From NCBI RefSeq assembly GCF_000426045.1, contig NZ_AUEP01000010.1:1-64000 (forward strand): a stretch of 64,000 nucleotides of DNA, written 5' to 3'. A model generated the notes under the pieces. It was given only the letters and a program-made list of their open reading frames with translations. It was not told the origin of the DNA and did not search any database. The first letter of the stretch is position 1. Each line of letters opens with the position of its first letter. A program made the position numbers and the translations under genes. This DNA is from Marmoricola sp. URHB0036 (lineage in GTDB: Bacteria; Actinomycetota; Actinomycetes; Propionibacteriales; Nocardioidaceae). Positions 37,186-42,752 of the stretch are shown here, in pieces.

Positions 37186-37299
37186 GCGCTCGATCTCCTC
37201 GAGGACCCCCCGCTGGTGTCCGGCGATTCGATTGGGCAAGATCGGGAACGACAGGCGTACGGCGCGACAGTGCGCCCACCCACCACGAGGAGGCACCAG

Positions 37300-37554
37300 A
37301 TGACCAACGACGAGCCCCTGAACGACGACGAGCTGGACACCACGGCAGGCGGTTCCGAGGCCGTTCCGGGCGGCGACGCCGACGGCACTGACGGTGACGG
37401 CACCGACGGGACCGACGGCGGCGCCAGCGACGCGGACGGCACCGACGGCGATGGGACCGACGGCACGGACGGCGATGCCACCGACGGCGGCGACGCCGAC
37501 GGCACCGATGGTGACTCCACCGACAGCACGGACGGCGACGCGAGCGACGGGTGA
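37300..37554 (+). CDS. RiPP-precursor-like peptide with Asp/Gly/Thr repeat core
   Basis: The 84-residue product starts MTNDEPLNDDELDTTAGG, resembling leader peptides that end in a Leu-x-x-x-Ala-Gly-Gly cleavage site. After SEAVPGG, almost only Asp, Gly, Thr, Ser and Ala follow, with three copies of DADGTDGD[G/S]TD[G/S]TDG at residues 26-40, 44-58 and 65-79. There is no Cys, Lys or aromatic residue. AGGAGG lies 6 bases before ATG 37300; a longer open frame from 37216 lacks a ribosome site. The stop overlaps the start of a JmjC/cupin hydroxylase gene (GTGA), so the peptide is its likely substrate. An acidic low-complexity protein without modification remains possible. Confidence 0.72.
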   Translation: MTNDEPLNDDELDTTAGGSEAVPGGDADGTDGDGTDGTDGGASDADGTDGDGTDGTDGDATDGGDADGTDGDSTDSTDGDASDG

Positions 37555-38690
37555 CCGATGCCCTCGAGCTGCTGAGCGGGGACGCCCAGTCCTTCGTCGA
37601 GAAGATCTGGGCGTCCCACGTCCACCTGCACCAGACCGACCCCACTGACCTGGTCGGGCTGCTCTCCTTCGACGACGTCGACGAGCTGCTGACGTCGTCG
37701 GCCATCCGCACGCCCGCGGTCCGGTTGGCGCAGGACGGCTCGGTGCTGGCCCAGTCGCGCTACACGCGCAGTGGCGCCACCCTGGCCGGCCAGCCCCTGA
37801 CCGGTCTGGTGGACGCCCGCAAGGTGATCGACCTGTTCGAGGGCGGCGCGACCGTCGTACTCCAGGGACTGCATCGCTACTGGCCCCCGCTGACCCGCCT
37901 CGTCGCCGAGCTCGAGCTCGCGCTCGGCCACCCCTGTCAGGCCAACGCCTACCTGACCCCACCCGGGTCGCAGGGCTTCGCCGTGCACAGCGACAGCCAC
38001 GACGTCTTCGTCTTCCAGACCCACGGAGCCAAGCTGTGGGAGGTCCATCCCGCACCCGGCGAGAGTGCCGAGGTCCGCGAGGTGCTGCTCGAGCCCGGGC
38101 TGAGCATGTACCTGCCGACGGGCACCCCGCACGCCGCCCGGGCCCAGGACGCGGTCTCGCTGCACGTCACGATCGGCATCAACCAGGTCACCTGGCGCAC
38201 CCTGCTCGACCGGGCCGTGGCCCGGGCCATGGATCAGGTGGAGGCCGATGCCCACCTGCCGGCGGGCTACCTCGAGGACCCCGACGCCCTGGTCGCCGGG
38301 CTCGACGACCGGCTGACGGCGCTTCGCGAGGCCCTGGCCGAGACCGACCTCTCGCGGGTGGCCGACGAGCAGACCAGGTCGTTCCTGGAGAAGCGCAACG
38401 GGCACCTCCGCGGTTCCCTGGTCGACCGGATGGCCCTCGACTCGGTCACCGGCAACACCCGGCTGCGCCGTCGGCCCGGCAAGCCCTGCGTGCTGCGCCC
38501 CGACGGCGACCGTCTGCACGTCCTGCTCGGCGACCGCCGGATGACGGTCCCGGCGCGCATCACCGACGCCGTCGAACGCGTCCGCACCCTCGGGGTGTTC
38601 ACCCCCGACGACCTCGGGCTGGACACCGAGTCCGGCCTGGTCCTGTGCCGCCGGTTGATCCGCGAGGGACTGCTCGAGGTCGTCCGCTGA
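37551..38690 (+). CDS. JmjC/cupin-type 2-oxoglutarate hydroxylase (RoxA/YcfD-like)
   Basis: The 379-residue protein belongs to the JmjC-domain Cupin_4 group that includes the ribosomal arginine hydroxylase YcfD. The iron triad is visible: HSDSHDVFVFQTHGAKLWEV gives His146 and Asp148, and GTPHAARA gives His194. The family hydroxylates side chains of proteins using Fe(II), O2 and 2-oxoglutarate. The C-terminal half (about residues 230-379) is helical/winged-helix-like, as in YcfD relatives (PGKPCVLRP, then FTPDDLGL). It is coupled to the upstream repeat peptide, which makes peptide hydroxylation, for example of Asp, the leading idea (inference). Confidence 0.88.
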   Translation: MTDALELLSGDAQSFVEKIWASHVHLHQTDPTDLVGLLSFDDVDELLTSSAIRTPAVRLAQDGSVLAQSRYTRSGATLAGQPLTGLVDARKVIDLFEGGATVVLQGLHRYWPPLTRLVAELELALGHPCQANAYLTPPGSQGFAVHSDSHDVFVFQTHGAKLWEVHPAPGESAEVREVLLEPGLSMYLPTGTPHAARAQDAVSLHVTIGINQVTWRTLLDRAVARAMDQVEADAHLPAGYLEDPDALVAGLDDRLTALREALAETDLSRVADEQTRSFLEKRNGHLRGSLVDRMALDSVTGNTRLRRRPGKPCVLRPDGDRLHVLLGDRRMTVPARITDAVERVRTLGVFTPDDLGLDTESGLVLCRRLIREGLLEVVR

Positions 38691-39592
38691 CCCCGTCGGC
38701 GCGTGCTGCCGCCCGCGGTGGCGACTTCCGGTGCTCGGTCGCCTCCGAGCAGCGGCAGGACGACCTTGCCGGCACCGCCACCCACGTCACCGCGTTCCTG
38801 CTCGTCGAGCACCACGGGCCGTGGGGCACCAGCGCGCCCCGGGACAGCCGGCTGCCCGACACGGTGCGAGCGCACCTGACGACCCACAAGAACATCAAGG
38901 TGCTGCTGGCCCGTCGGCACCACCGGGCCCATCGCGGGCCCGACTTCCGCGCCTTCCTGTGCTTCCCGGCGAGGCGGCTGCTGCTCACCTCGACCTTCGT
39001 CGACCCCGAGGAGCTGACCCGTCTCGACCTCGACGCTGTCGCGCGCGGTGAGGCACCCGACTGGGACCGGATGGCCGGCCCGCTGTTCGGGGTCTGCACC
39101 CACGGACGGCACGACGCGTGCTGTGCCGAGCGCGGGCGTCCGGTCGCGTCCTCGCTGACGGCGAGCCACCCGGCGCAGACCTGGGAGATCTCGCACATCG
39201 GCGGCGATCGCTTCGCGGCCAACATGGTGGTCCTGCCCGAGGGGCTCTACTACGGCCGGATGGAGCCGGGGTCGGCCGGCGAGGTCGCTCTGCTGCACGA
39301 GGCCGGACGGCTCGACGTCGATCGGCTGCGCGGGCGGTCGTCGTACCCCATGCACGTGCAGTACGCCGAGATCGCGCTGCGCCGACTGCTGGGGGAGGAC
39401 CGCCTCGACGCCGTACGACTCGTGCGCCGGGAGGGATGGACCGCCGTGTTCGCCCATTCCGACGACTCCGGCTCGCGGGAGTGGGCCGTCACGGTCAGCC
39501 GTCGTACGGACGGGGAGGGGCAGCTCACCTGTGGCCTGGAGCGCCTTAGTCCCGTCCCGGTGCACGACGTCGTCTCGATCGAGCAGATCTGA
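38687..39592 (+). CDS. Sucrase-ferredoxin-like Fe-S protein
   Basis: The 301-residue protein is a thioredoxin-fold [2Fe-2S] protein of the Suc_Fer-like family: FRCSVASEQRQDDLAGTA and FLLVEHHGPWG near the start, then VCTHGRHDACCAERGRPVA, with Cys137 and a CC pair as cluster ligands, and SHIGGDRFAANMVVLPEGLYYGR. It may supply electrons. Start: no ATG/GTG/TTG fits well. CTG 38687 overlaps the hydroxylase stop as CTGA and has GAGG at a good distance; GTG 38645 is the alternative and would overlap by 46 bases. It is the third gene of the candidate peptide-modification unit. Confidence 0.87.
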   Translation: MTPSARAAARGGDFRCSVASEQRQDDLAGTATHVTAFLLVEHHGPWGTSAPRDSRLPDTVRAHLTTHKNIKVLLARRHHRAHRGPDFRAFLCFPARRLLLTSTFVDPEELTRLDLDAVARGEAPDWDRMAGPLFGVCTHGRHDACCAERGRPVASSLTASHPAQTWEISHIGGDRFAANMVVLPEGLYYGRMEPGSAGEVALLHEAGRLDVDRLRGRSSYPMHVQYAEIALRRLLGEDRLDAVRLVRREGWTAVFAHSDDSGSREWAVTVSRRTDGEGQLTCGLERLSPVPVHDVVSIEQI

Positions 39593-39645: not shown

Positions 39646-39687
39646 CACTGGAATCGAGTCATCGATCCAGTCAAGGAGATGAGCACC

Positions 39688-39828
39688 ATGTACAGCCCCC
39701 TCAACGAGGACTACATGTTCCAGGAGATGAAGAACCGGACGGAGAGCCTGCTCCGTCCTCACCGTGAGGACGTCGCCGCACGCGCCGGACGCCGTTGGTG
39801 GCGCCGCGCGACGCACCGTGCGGGATGA
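39688..39828 (+). CDS. 46-residue basic small protein coupled to the LuxR gene
   Basis: The product starts MYSPLNEDYMFQEMKNRTES and ends in an Arg/Trp-rich tail (RAGRRWWRRATHRAG). AAGGAG lies 9 bases before ATG 39688. Its TGA stop overlaps the ATG of the LuxR gene (ATGA at 39825-39828), so it is in position to couple translation. The N-terminal half is acidic and amphipathic, the C-terminal half strongly basic. I do not recognise a named family. It could be a regulator partner, a leader peptide or an antimicrobial-like peptide. Confidence 0.68.
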   Translation: MYSPLNEDYMFQEMKNRTESLLRPHREDVAARAGRRWWRRATHRAG

Positions 39829-42752
39829 TGACCGATGTGCGGATGGACCGGAGCAGGACCGAGACCCTCGTCGGACGTGACGGGGAGCTCGAGGTCCTGC
39901 TCCGCTCTGCCACCGGGACCGAGCACACCCGGATGCTTCTCCTCTCGGGCGACGCAGGCGTCGGCAAGACCCGCCTGCTGACCGAGGCGCTCGACCGCCT
40001 CACCGCCGACGGTTGGCGCACCCTCGTCGGCCACTGTCTCGACTTCGGCGAGACCTCCATGCCCTACCTCCCCTTCGCGGAGATGCTCGCCCAGGTGGGC
40101 GAGGTCGCCCCCGAGCTCGTCGAGCAGGACCTCCACCCCGCCCTGGCCCGGCTGCGGCACCGCGCGCCGGCCGACGAGCCCACCGAGGGCCTCGACCGGG
40201 CCGAGGTGTTCGAGGCGATGTACGTCCTCGTCGAGGACCTCGCCGCGCTCGGCCCCGTCGTCCTCGTCGTCGAGGACGCTCACTGGGCCGATGCCAGCAC
40301 GCGAGACCTGATCAGCTTCCTGCTCTCCCGTCGGCTCCGGGGCCGCTGCCTGATCGTGGCCACCTTCCGCTCCGACGAGATGCACCGCCGCCACCCGCTG
40401 CGCCAGCGGGTGGCCGAGTGGGTGCGCCTCCCCGGCGTCGAGCGGGTCCAGCTCGACCCACTGCCACCGGGCGCCGTGCGCGGCCTGGTCGAGCAGATGA
40501 TCGGCAGCCAGGGCAACTCCCTCGGCGAGCAGTATGACGACGACATCGAGCGGATCGTCCAGCGTGCCCAGGGCAACGCCTTCTACGTCGAGGAGCTGGT
40601 CAGCGCCTTCCTCGGCGGTGGCTGGAGCCTGCCCGAGGACCTCGCCGATCTCCTCCTCGTGCGGCTGGACCGACTCGACGAGTCCGCGCGCGACGTGGTC
40701 CGCGTCGCCTCCGCCGCCGGCCAGCGTGTGCCTCACGACCTGCTCGCCCGGGTCGCACCCGTCACCGAGGACGAGCTCGAGGTGGCGCTGCGCACCGCCA
40801 TCGACGCCAACGTGCTGGTCCGCACCGGCACCTCCGAGTACGCCTTCCGGCACGCCCTCCTCGGCGAGGCCGTCTACGACGACCTGCTGCCCGGCGAGCG
40901 GATGCGCCTGCACACGGCGTACGCCGAGGCGGTGCGCGAGCTCCACGGCAGCCGCCAGTCGGCCAACCTGGCCCGGCACGCGCTCGCCTCCCACGACCTG
41001 CCCACCGCCCTGCAGGCCAGCGTGGAGGCCGGCGACCAGGCCCTCGCCAGCGGCGGGCCCGACGAGGCGGCCAAGCACTACACGACAGCGCTGGAGATCT
41101 ACGCGCGCGCCGCACGCCACCTCGACGACCCGCCCGACGAGGCCGAGCTGGTGGCCCGCACGGTCGACGCGCTGTGCAGCTCCGGGCGACCCGAGACGGC
41201 GCTCGCGCTGATCGACTCCCACCTGGGCCGGCTCCCCGCCGACGCGCCGCCCATCGCCCGCGCGCGGTTGCTCCTCGCCCGGGTCGAGGCGCTGCGCTCC
41301 ACCGAGACCGACGCCCAGCCGAGCCTGGTCAGCGGCGAGGCACTCGAGCTGGTCGGCCCCGAGCCCACCCACCTGCGGGCCAGGATCCTGGCGATGCACG
41401 CGCAGGCGCTGATCTGGGACGGCCGCTTCGACGAGGCCCGGCACGAGGCCGACGAGGCGATCGAGCTGGCCGACCAGCTGGGGCTGCCGCGCCTGGCCGC
41501 CGACGTCGGCGTCACGCTGACCTGGCTCAGCCAGCACCTCGACCTCGGCGAGAAGAGCCGGGCCGAGCTGAAGCGGATCATCGCCGAGGCGCAGGCGCGC
41601 GGTGACGTGCTCAGCGAGATGCGCGGCTACCAGCGCTGCGGCGGTCTCGAGTACGACTACGGCGAGCTGGCCGCGGCCCAGGCCAACTTCCTCGAGGCGG
41701 CCCGGCTCGCACGCGAGATCGGCCGACCGTGGACGATCCAGGGCATCGCCGGCCGGATGCAGGCCGCCGTGATGGCCTACATGCGCGGCGAGTGGGAGGA
41801 AGCCCTGGCCATCGCCGACTACAGCAACGAGGACCCGCCGCCGACCCCGCGCGCCATGCTCGATGCCGTCGCCCTCGCGGTGGCCGCCGGGCGCGGAGAC
41901 GTCTCCGCGCTGGGCCGGTTCTCCGGCCTGCGCGAGCGGTGGCACCGCGAAGGTCTCGTCGCCGTGGTGGGTGGCGGTGCCGCGATCGAGCTGCAATCCC
42001 TCCGCGACGGAGCAGCAGCCGCCGTCGCGACGTACGACGACCTCTGCTGCGTGCTCACCCCGCTCTGGGGCGAGAGCTTCGGTGCTCGTCTCCGGCTGGC
42101 GACCCTGGCCCTGTCGGCACTCGCCGACGAGGCGCCGCGCACCTCCACGGCCGCCCGCGACGAGGTGCGCGCGAGCGCAGCCAGGCTGATCGGCGACGCC
42201 GACCGGGTGCTGGCCGTGCGCGACGAGGACGAGCGACCGTTCGCGATCGAGGGCCGGGCCTGGGCGGCGCGGCTGCGGGCCGAGGAGCTCCGGCTCGAGT
42301 GGCTGCTGGGCGGACGTGTCGACCTCGACGACCTCGTCAGTCGCTGGCAGCGGTCGGTGGAGCTGTTCTCCGACCTCGGCCACGTCTACGAGGAGGCGCG
42401 GGCCCGCACCCAGCTCGCTCTCGTCCTTCGGGCCGCCGGCGACGGCGAGGCCAGCCAGGAGCAGGCCGGTGCCGCGCGCACGGTCGCCGCGCGACTCCGC
42501 TCCAAGCCGCTGCTCGACGAGCTCGGGTCGACCGGGCGCGCGAGTGGCGCCGACGCGGGTGCGCTCACGCCGCGCGAGCGCGAGATCCTCACCCTCGTCG
42601 CCGCCGGACGCAGCAACGGCGAGATCGGCAAGCAACTGTTCATCTCGGCCAAGACCGTGAGCGTGCACGTCTCCAACGTGATGGCCAAGCTCGGCGCCGG
42701 CAGCCGCACCGAGGCCAGCGCGCTCGCCCGCCGGGCCGGGCTCATCGACTGA
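39825..42752 (+). CDS. LAL-type LuxR transcriptional regulator (AAA ATPase)
   Basis: The 975-residue protein has an N-terminal ATPase with Walker A GDAGVGKT (residues 42-49) and a Walker B region VVLVVEDAHWADAS (about 146-159), a long helical-repeat middle with TPR-like segments, and a C-terminal LuxR helix-turn-helix (LTPREREILTLVAAGRSNGE, then TVSVHVSNVMAKLG, last 60 residues). This is the large ATP-binding regulator of the LuxR family (MalT-like). ATG 39825 overlaps the small gene's stop. The target is unknown; the neighbouring hydrolase and P450 genes are candidates. Confidence 0.92.
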   Translation: MMTDVRMDRSRTETLVGRDGELEVLLRSATGTEHTRMLLLSGDAGVGKTRLLTEALDRLTADGWRTLVGHCLDFGETSMPYLPFAEMLAQVGEVAPELVEQDLHPALARLRHRAPADEPTEGLDRAEVFEAMYVLVEDLAALGPVVLVVEDAHWADASTRDLISFLLSRRLRGRCLIVATFRSDEMHRRHPLRQRVAEWVRLPGVERVQLDPLPPGAVRGLVEQMIGSQGNSLGEQYDDDIERIVQRAQGNAFYVEELVSAFLGGGWSLPEDLADLLLVRLDRLDESARDVVRVASAAGQRVPHDLLARVAPVTEDELEVALRTAIDANVLVRTGTSEYAFRHALLGEAVYDDLLPGERMRLHTAYAEAVRELHGSRQSANLARHALASHDLPTALQASVEAGDQALASGGPDEAAKHYTTALEIYARAARHLDDPPDEAELVARTVDALCSSGRPETALALIDSHLGRLPADAPPIARARLLLARVEALRSTETDAQPSLVSGEALELVGPEPTHLRARILAMHAQALIWDGRFDEARHEADEAIELADQLGLPRLAADVGVTLTWLSQHLDLGEKSRAELKRIIAEAQARGDVLSEMRGYQRCGGLEYDYGELAAAQANFLEAARLAREIGRPWTIQGIAGRMQAAVMAYMRGEWEEALAIADYSNEDPPPTPRAMLDAVALAVAAGRGDVSALGRFSGLRERWHREGLVAVVGGGAAIELQSLRDGAAAAVATYDDLCCVLTPLWGESFGARLRLATLALSALADEAPRTSTAARDEVRASAARLIGDADRVLAVRDEDERPFAIEGRAWAARLRAEELRLEWLLGGRVDLDDLVSRWQRSVELFSDLGHVYEEARARTQLALVLRAAGDGEASQEQAGAARTVAARLRSKPLLDELGSTGRASGADAGALTPREREILTLVAAGRSNGEIGKQLFISAKTVSVHVSNVMAKLGAGSRTEASALARRAGLID

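Follow-up and report, generated by a model that had tools for sequence, protein, structure and literature searches.

A conserved actinobacterial gene unit of an aspartate-repeat peptide, a JmjC oxygenase, and a ferredoxin-like protein: a likely RiPP-like system

What does a JmjC oxygenase act on when its gene overlaps that of a small, highly acidic repeat peptide? This question is raised by a three-gene unit in Marmoricola sp. URHB0036 (Nocardioidaceae), on a stretch of 64,000 nucleotides (positions 1 to 64,000 of contig NZ_AUEP01000010.1), here called the window. An earlier note on this DNA had proposed a ribosomally synthesized and posttranslationally modified peptide (RiPP) system consisting of an 84-residue peptide whose 59-residue tail holds three 15-residue repeats and 22 Asp, a JmjC/Cupin_4 hydroxylase with the iron triad His146-Asp148-His194, and a sucrase-ferredoxin-like (Suc_Fer-like) protein. 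The sequence and the Pfam matches agree with this description (Table 1). The tail contains two copies of DADGTDGDGTDGTDG and one copy of DADGTDGDSTDSTDG. The genes lie head to tail, and both overlaps described in the note are present: the peptide stop and JmjC start overlap as GTGA, and the JmjC stop and Suc_Fer-like gene overlap as CTGA. Pfam and NCBIfam models gave no match to the peptide beyond low-complexity noise to MSCRAMM Ser-Asp repeats, and NCBIfam gave none for any of the three proteins. A search of the window genome for second copies found none; it has a single JmjC_2 gene, a single PF06999 gene, and a single Asp-repeat peptide.

The arrangement is conserved well beyond this strain. 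When the JmjC protein was used to scan 84,980 species genomes, 80 loci were obtained, mainly in Nocardioides, Marmoricola, and Aeromicrobium, and the peptide abuts the JmjC gene in all of those loci with enough upstream sequence. Profile searches beyond Nocardioidaceae took in 395 genomes from the class and 296 from across the phylum; a close homologue (at least 190 bits) is present in 76 of the 395 class genomes, and the enzyme occurs in many further lineages. The JmjC clade was set by a tree in which its two halves, though not their union, are well supported. In this clade, each of the 164 loci that could be tested encodes an Asp-rich repeat peptide directly 5' of the JmjC gene, and a Suc_Fer gene adjoins the JmjC gene in 148/162. 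As a control, the identical upstream search was run before 953 other long open reading frames (ORFs) in the same DNA. Tails with at least 15% Asp were found in 89% of the clade versus 1.0% of the controls, and tails with at least 25% Asp in 69% versus 0/953. The arrangement therefore exceeds chance, and this control excludes the explanation that Asp-rich ORFs simply arise in high-GC DNA. When about 8 kb on either side of the unit was compared across 21 lineages, the recurring families were JmjC (21/21) and Suc_Fer (19/21), and nothing else. In most remote JmjC relatives (below about 160 bits), no such peptide is encoded upstream, and none of the distant JmjC proteins outside the clade has a same-strand adjacent Suc_Fer gene. 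These results support the view that the peptide, the JmjC enzyme, and the iron-sulfur (Fe-S) protein function together and are conserved as a unit.

The peptide has the form of a RiPP precursor, being a short gene product with a conserved N-terminal leader and a variable C-terminal core. The leader consensus of the Nocardioidaceae type is P-L-x-D-D-[DE]-[MI]-x-T, followed by repeats of the D-x-D-G-T-D-G type. Other lineages have different repeats (EGPADGGAEGTPGVHDGGADGGA, DGGADGGADGG, GEGTADGGSNPEGHDGGADGTA, or DADSTDAD), usually behind an L-D-D-D-[MI]-T-T leader. A search of other actinobacteria for leader peptides beside JmjC genes, which the earlier note had suggested, found a conserved leader in nearly all relatives, with varying repeats. 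The note had also described the leader as ending in LDTTAGG and likened it to double-glycine leaders. The motif (PLxDDDMTT) is conserved; the terminal AGG is not. We rejected a double-glycine (C39/PCAT) leader, as the GG is not conserved and the 21 lineages have no C39 peptidase or exporter in common within 8 kb. Substitutions at codon positions 1, 2, and 3 number 3935, 3154, and 8723 in the leader and 160, 163, and 494 in the whole peptide among close relatives. This bias indicates that the peptide frame is protein coding and that the leader is selected as protein. Within the tails, consecutive Asp residues are 2 or 3 positions apart in 95% of cases family-wide. The ratio of Asp to Glu is 87:1 in Nocardioidaceae-type tails and 7.7:1 in other tails; the former value argues that the specific Asp side chain is selected, rather than mere acidity. 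Asp, accompanied by small residues, is the sole functional side chain constant across the core types.

The linked enzyme has an intact predicted active site, as expected of a RiPP-modifying enzyme. Its iron ligands (H146, D148, and H194) and the 2-oxoglutarate (2OG) residues N132 and K161, the latter two placed by aligning the enzyme with NO66, do not vary among 27 relatives and are conserved at 99% or more in 145. The best sequence matches in the PDB are the ribosomal oxygenases NO66 (7e-18) and MINA53. Like these proteins, the enzyme passes the JmjC_2 Pfam cutoff and has the HxD...H triad, the 2OG-binding Lys and Asn, and the full ribosomal-oxygenase architecture. The model of the JmjC protein (predicted local distance difference test score [pLDDT] 89) aligns with human NO66 over its full length (residues 1 to 379), with a Z score of 26.5 and a root mean square deviation of 5.8 Å over 364 residues.

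A possible means of recognizing the leader lies at the C terminus of the enzyme. The C-terminal domain, modeled alone at a pLDDT of 90.7, has the topology ββββ-ααα-β and thus contains the βββ-ααα fold of RiPP recognition elements (RREs), which the earlier note had proposed looking for by structure prediction. The winged helices of ribosomal oxygenases match it better (MINA53, Z 12.9, 1.7 Å over 82 residues; NO66, Z 10.2). Apart from YcfD, the next matches are RREs: MccB with MccA (Z 7.5), PbtF (Z 7.4), and McbB (Z 7.3), followed by TbiB1 with the TbiA leader (Z 7.0), ThcOx, and PqqD. This pattern suggests that the winged helices of human MINA53 and NO66 and the RREs are of common origin.

Natural variation bears on the function of this domain. 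Homologues lacking a conserved leader peptide, which the earlier note had named as a sign against its proposal, are largely absent from the clade. The partial exception is a group of twelve loci (L130 to L133 and L135 to L142), forming a clade of their own, which encode repeat peptides without the leader motif. The enzymes of this leaderless clade have lost about 6 residues around the second helix of the RRE-like domain, so that 11 to 13 of the 19 positions in this region are occupied, versus 16 to 19 elsewhere. The sole other short RRE-like domain, in L172, comes from a truncated contig, and some loci flagged as leaderless by the automatic motif test carry LDDD-type leaders when inspected by eye. 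If the C-terminal domain binds the leader, loss of the one alongside part of the other, as seen here, would be expected. Two members of the leaderless clade, L130 and L137, have neither a repeat peptide of the usual type upstream (the ends read ...GQGPTVEPGA or ...GRGPTIEPGA) nor an adjacent Suc_Fer gene, and perhaps represent a repurposed branch.

The third protein shares with Apd1/Aim32-type proteins a match to PF06999 and the CX8C motif. In eukaryotic Aim32 and Apd1, a [2Fe-2S] cluster is bound via CX8C...HX3H (PMC8482512). The JmjC-linked Suc_Fer proteins keep CX8C and the first His; in contrast to Apd1/Aim32, the second His is replaced by Asp (HX3D) and the Arg of the CX8C loop by His, with almost no exceptions. 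H141, in place of the loop Arg, and D173 are present in 147 of the 150 JmjC-adjacent copies. At the second-ligand position, HX3D occurs in 148/150 copies and HX3C in 2/150; HX3H was not encountered. PF06999 copies unlinked to JmjC mostly have Arg and His at the two variant positions. In a sample of PF06999 proteins from 60 genomes, Asp was found in 12/12 copies near JmjC, and His in 16/17 without JmjC nearby. The exceptional Asp-containing (D-type) copy belongs to genome G046, whose JmjC gene has no Suc_Fer neighbor. Likewise, G064, G093, and G498 lack an adjacent Suc_Fer gene and carry a D-type copy elsewhere in the genome. That the D-type protein accompanies JmjC even when unlinked is strong evidence for a shared function. 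Sequence distances of the two proteins are also correlated (Mantel r, 0.92, 0/999 permutations; 0.80 within the Nocardioidaceae set), a correlation that stems partly from shared species history. Judged by sequence, JmjC-linked Suc_Fer proteins are a distinct subtype of PF06999. A second, H-type paralogue (CTNGxRDxCC and HLGGHRF) is encoded about 1.6 to 3.5 kb upstream of JmjC in a subset of Nocardioides (loci L037, L042, L043, L054, L056, L062, L064, L065, L068, L070 to L072, L074, L077, and L081).

We consider it likely that the unit works as a RiPP-like system: the JmjC enzyme would hold the peptide by its leader and, with help from the Suc_Fer protein, hydroxylate the repeat residues, likeliest at the β-carbon of Asp, to give a metal-binding product. 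The small peptide would be the substrate, its acidic leader (PLxDDDMTT) held by the C-terminal RRE-like winged helix. Leader binding would position the Asp/Gly/Ala/Thr repeats at the Fe(II)/2OG active site, where hydroxylation could take place many times per peptide. JmjC hydroxylases modify the side chains of Asn, Asp, His, Arg, or Lys. We infer Asp as the target because no other functional side chain recurs in every core type and because Glu is so much rarer. The Suc_Fer-like protein, as a subtype of the [2Fe-2S] thioredoxin-like ferredoxins, would assist as a reductant or second redox partner, probably by keeping the iron reduced over many turnovers. Such hydroxylation would yield a polyanion rich in hydroxy-Asp and apt to bind metal ions, perhaps inside the cell.

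Several observations count against this proposal. The fold alone is insufficient to establish leader binding, because ribosomal oxygenases carry an RRE-like domain too, and Z scores of about 7 between the C-terminal domain and RREs are modest. The joint loss of leader and domain segment amounts to one event, because it is confined to a single clade. Thr, Ser, Ala, and Gly are likewise enriched in the repeats and are potential targets. Some genomes lack a D-type Suc_Fer protein, and G095, G197, G118, and G649 have no match at all. Finally, no peptidase or exporter gene within 8 kb is common to the 21 lineages, in keeping with the earlier description of the unit; such genes may lie elsewhere in the genome, and their absence would be unusual for a secreted RiPP. 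A secreted product is therefore no more likely than an intracellular one.

Could the enzyme modify the peptide by a different chemistry? Cross-linking or macrocyclization, oxidation of Thr, Ser, Ala, or Gly, and aspartimide or isoaspartate formation at Asp-Gly are candidates. Asp-Gly is the most frequent step following Asp in the core, and Xia and colleagues reportedly described, to go by a 2025 title cited in PMC12710340 and PMC12636437, RiPP macrocyclization catalyzed by a 2OG dioxygenase. However, only Asp and small residues are common to all cores, the variable length and spacing of the repeats do not suggest a fixed ring, and the 8-kb flanks of the 21 lineages share neither an ATP-grasp nor a methyltransferase gene. 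We judge such chemistry unlikely. Alternatively, the JmjC protein might be an actinobacterial ribosomal oxygenase that hydroxylates a ribosomal protein, with the acidic peptide as a bystander. Its closest solved relatives, NO66 and MINA53, and an architecture like that of NO66 from end to end are consistent with this idea, yet a bystander would not be expected in every testable locus of the clade, nor would its leader be expected to covary with the C-terminal domain. Moreover, many complete genomes from this family have no JmjC gene that reaches the search threshold, a patchiness unlike that of a core ribosome modifier, and the remote relatives mostly lack the peptide. A ribosomal substrate is accordingly improbable.

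The peptide might instead work unmodified, as a metal buffer, chaperone, or nucleic acid mimic, with the JmjC and Fe-S proteins acting elsewhere or regulating it. An Asp at every second or third residue could bind Ca2+ or Fe as is, and no export or maturation genes recur in the flanks compared. Strict pairing with an oxygenase that has an intact active site and an RRE-like domain, together with the strong preference for Asp over Glu, makes this quite improbable. A last possibility is that the short ORF is a regulatory leader of the JmjC gene, sensing Asp-tRNA through attenuation or translational coupling, as the GTGA stop/start overlap and many Asp codons might suggest. At the protein level, the N-terminal motif is kept across classes even where core types change, no terminator would fit between the peptide and enzyme genes, and the spacing between them is variable; we find this explanation barely credible.

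How does the unit compare with known systems? In the biphenomycin pathway, BipG is a JmjC ornithine γ-hydroxylase that acts on a RiPP precursor (PMC12707348). Both systems pair a JmjC 2OG oxygenase with a ribosomal precursor peptide, although the substrate role is inferred in ours. BipG modifies one ornithine in a short core and belongs to a nine-gene cluster with a multinuclear nonheme iron-dependent oxidative enzyme, a radical S-adenosylmethionine enzyme, an arginase, a peptidase, and a major facilitator superfamily exporter; the present unit, with its Asp repeat array, two enzymes, and no peptidase or exporter, is set apart by description. A survey of RREs reported that some fish and algal proteins carry RRE-like folds joined to PF08007 and that bacterial homologues occur in RiPP-like contexts (PMC12710340). 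Those proteins likewise join PF08007 to an RRE-fold domain; the fish and algal ones have no known precursors, and the main text of the survey names no such peptide or Suc_Fer partner. NO66, MINA53, and YcfD have the same order of JmjC domain, helical dimerization part, and winged helix and identical Fe and 2OG ligands. Their substrates are ribosomal proteins, whereas every testable locus of the present clade has a gene for a repeat peptide beside that of the enzyme. The earlier note pointed to no described class with this trio. JmjC RiPP hydroxylases and JmjC-RRE fusions are already known; for a phylum-wide family combining Asp-repeat precursor, JmjC-RRE protein, and D-type Suc_Fer, we found no description in the open literature, supplements aside.

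The nearest outgroup is found in Streptomyces, including S. clavuligerus, where the peptides are short, acidic, and nonrepeat. On the S. clavuligerus megaplasmid (locus L210, NZ_CP065235.1, 4769 to 6164), a 48-residue peptide, MDDKKTSLEPDEIEVIPPVSTPDFVIADNDPSDPPIAIADPDPFDPVI (WP_009999493.1), annotated as "hypothetical protein," precedes a JmjC gene whose product (WP_009999494.1), annotated as "cupin domain-containing protein," is 35% identical to the window enzyme. Both this locus and Streptomyces locus L143 encode a short acidic peptide with a DEI[EQ]V leader followed by the JmjC gene; they differ from the window unit in having a short Asp/Pro core, no repeats, and no Suc_Fer gene. An S9 peptidase gene and an ATP-binding cassette transporter gene lie near the S. 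clavuligerus pair, and the locus is likely a RiPP cluster in a cultured strain. The candidate precursor in L143, MAETKTLKMDEIQVETAPAADPQFLICDPDPSDDCWIVCNPNYCY, has a core with Cys, Trp, and Tyr. In a further locus, L149, a 35-residue peptide, MDPIEVEVEELTQVTSRDITAGGDSDGTDSSSDFI, adjoins a far more distant JmjC gene (129 bits).

The features of the window are collected in Table 1. No ATG, GTG, or TTG codon is found near the start of the Suc_Fer-like gene in the window. CTG is probably its start codon, because related loci have ATG, GTG, or TTG at the identical position. Downstream of the unit lies a gene for a large LAL-type LuxR regulator. A homologue is found within 4.5 kb of JmjC in 33 of the 81 Nocardioidaceae loci, mostly upstream, and is missing near the unit in other lineages; the regulator is therefore placed outside the unit. 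Related Nocardioidaceae loci contain no match to the 49-codon ORF that lies between the Suc_Fer-like gene and the regulator.

Table 1. Features of the three-gene unit and its downstream flank (window positions). Residue numbers of the Suc_Fer-like protein count from the ACC codon at 38690.
Feature	Position	Strand	Basis
Shine-Dalgarno-like GAGGAGG, upstream of peptide start	37287..37293	+	sequence
Precursor-like peptide, 84 residues	37300..37554 (stop 37552-37554 included)	+	homologues upstream of JmjC in clade
Leader motif PLNDDELDTT (family consensus PLxDD[DE][MI]xT)	37315..37344	+	76/80 leaders anchored on motif
Repeat core, three 15-residue DADGTDGD[GS]TD[GS]TDG units, 22 Asp/59 residues	37375..37551	+	sequence
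JmjC (JmjC_2) 2OG oxygenase, 379 residues, ribosomal-oxygenase architecture	37551..38690	+	PF08007, 4e-19; model vs NO66
Fe-ligand stretch (H146, D148, H194)	37986..38132	+	conservation in homologues
2OG residues N132 and K161	codons 37944 (N132) and 38031 (K161)	+	alignment to NO66
Predicted C-terminal RRE-like winged-helix domain, JmjC residues 303-379	38457..38687	+	predicted structure, fold matches
Suc_Fer-like protein (thioredoxin-like ferredoxin family), probable CTG start	~38687-39592	+	PF06999, 8e-18
Stretch with CX8C (C136, C145), H141, H169, D173; HX3D variant of CX8C..HX3H	39095..39208	+	conservation
49-codon ORF (MSTMYSPLNEDYMFQEMKNRTES...), Shine-Dalgarno-like AAGGAG	39679-39828
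LAL-type LuxR regulator	39795-42752

Taken at its broadest, the proposal is of an undescribed, phylum-wide class of actinobacterial peptides with dozens of β-hydroxy-Asp residues, made by a JmjC enzyme that carries its own RRE and a [2Fe-2S] helper with new ligands (Cys, His, and Asp or the relocated His), and serving as an intracellular metal-binding polymer, not a secreted antibiotic. We offer this fuller version tentatively, as somewhat less likely than not. If the hydroxylation proposal is correct, ribosomal peptide modification would gain a large family not listed before, and one of unusually few parts: the substrate, a single oxygenase that includes its own leader-binding fold, and an Fe-S helper. 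The helper would offer a naturally occurring, ligand-swapped form of a known cluster motif. The family would provide a bacterial test bed for the choice of peptide substrates by JmjC oxygenases and a bridge from RiPP enzymes to the human ribosomal oxygenases. Its products would be genetically encoded, polyhydroxylated peptides that may bind metals.

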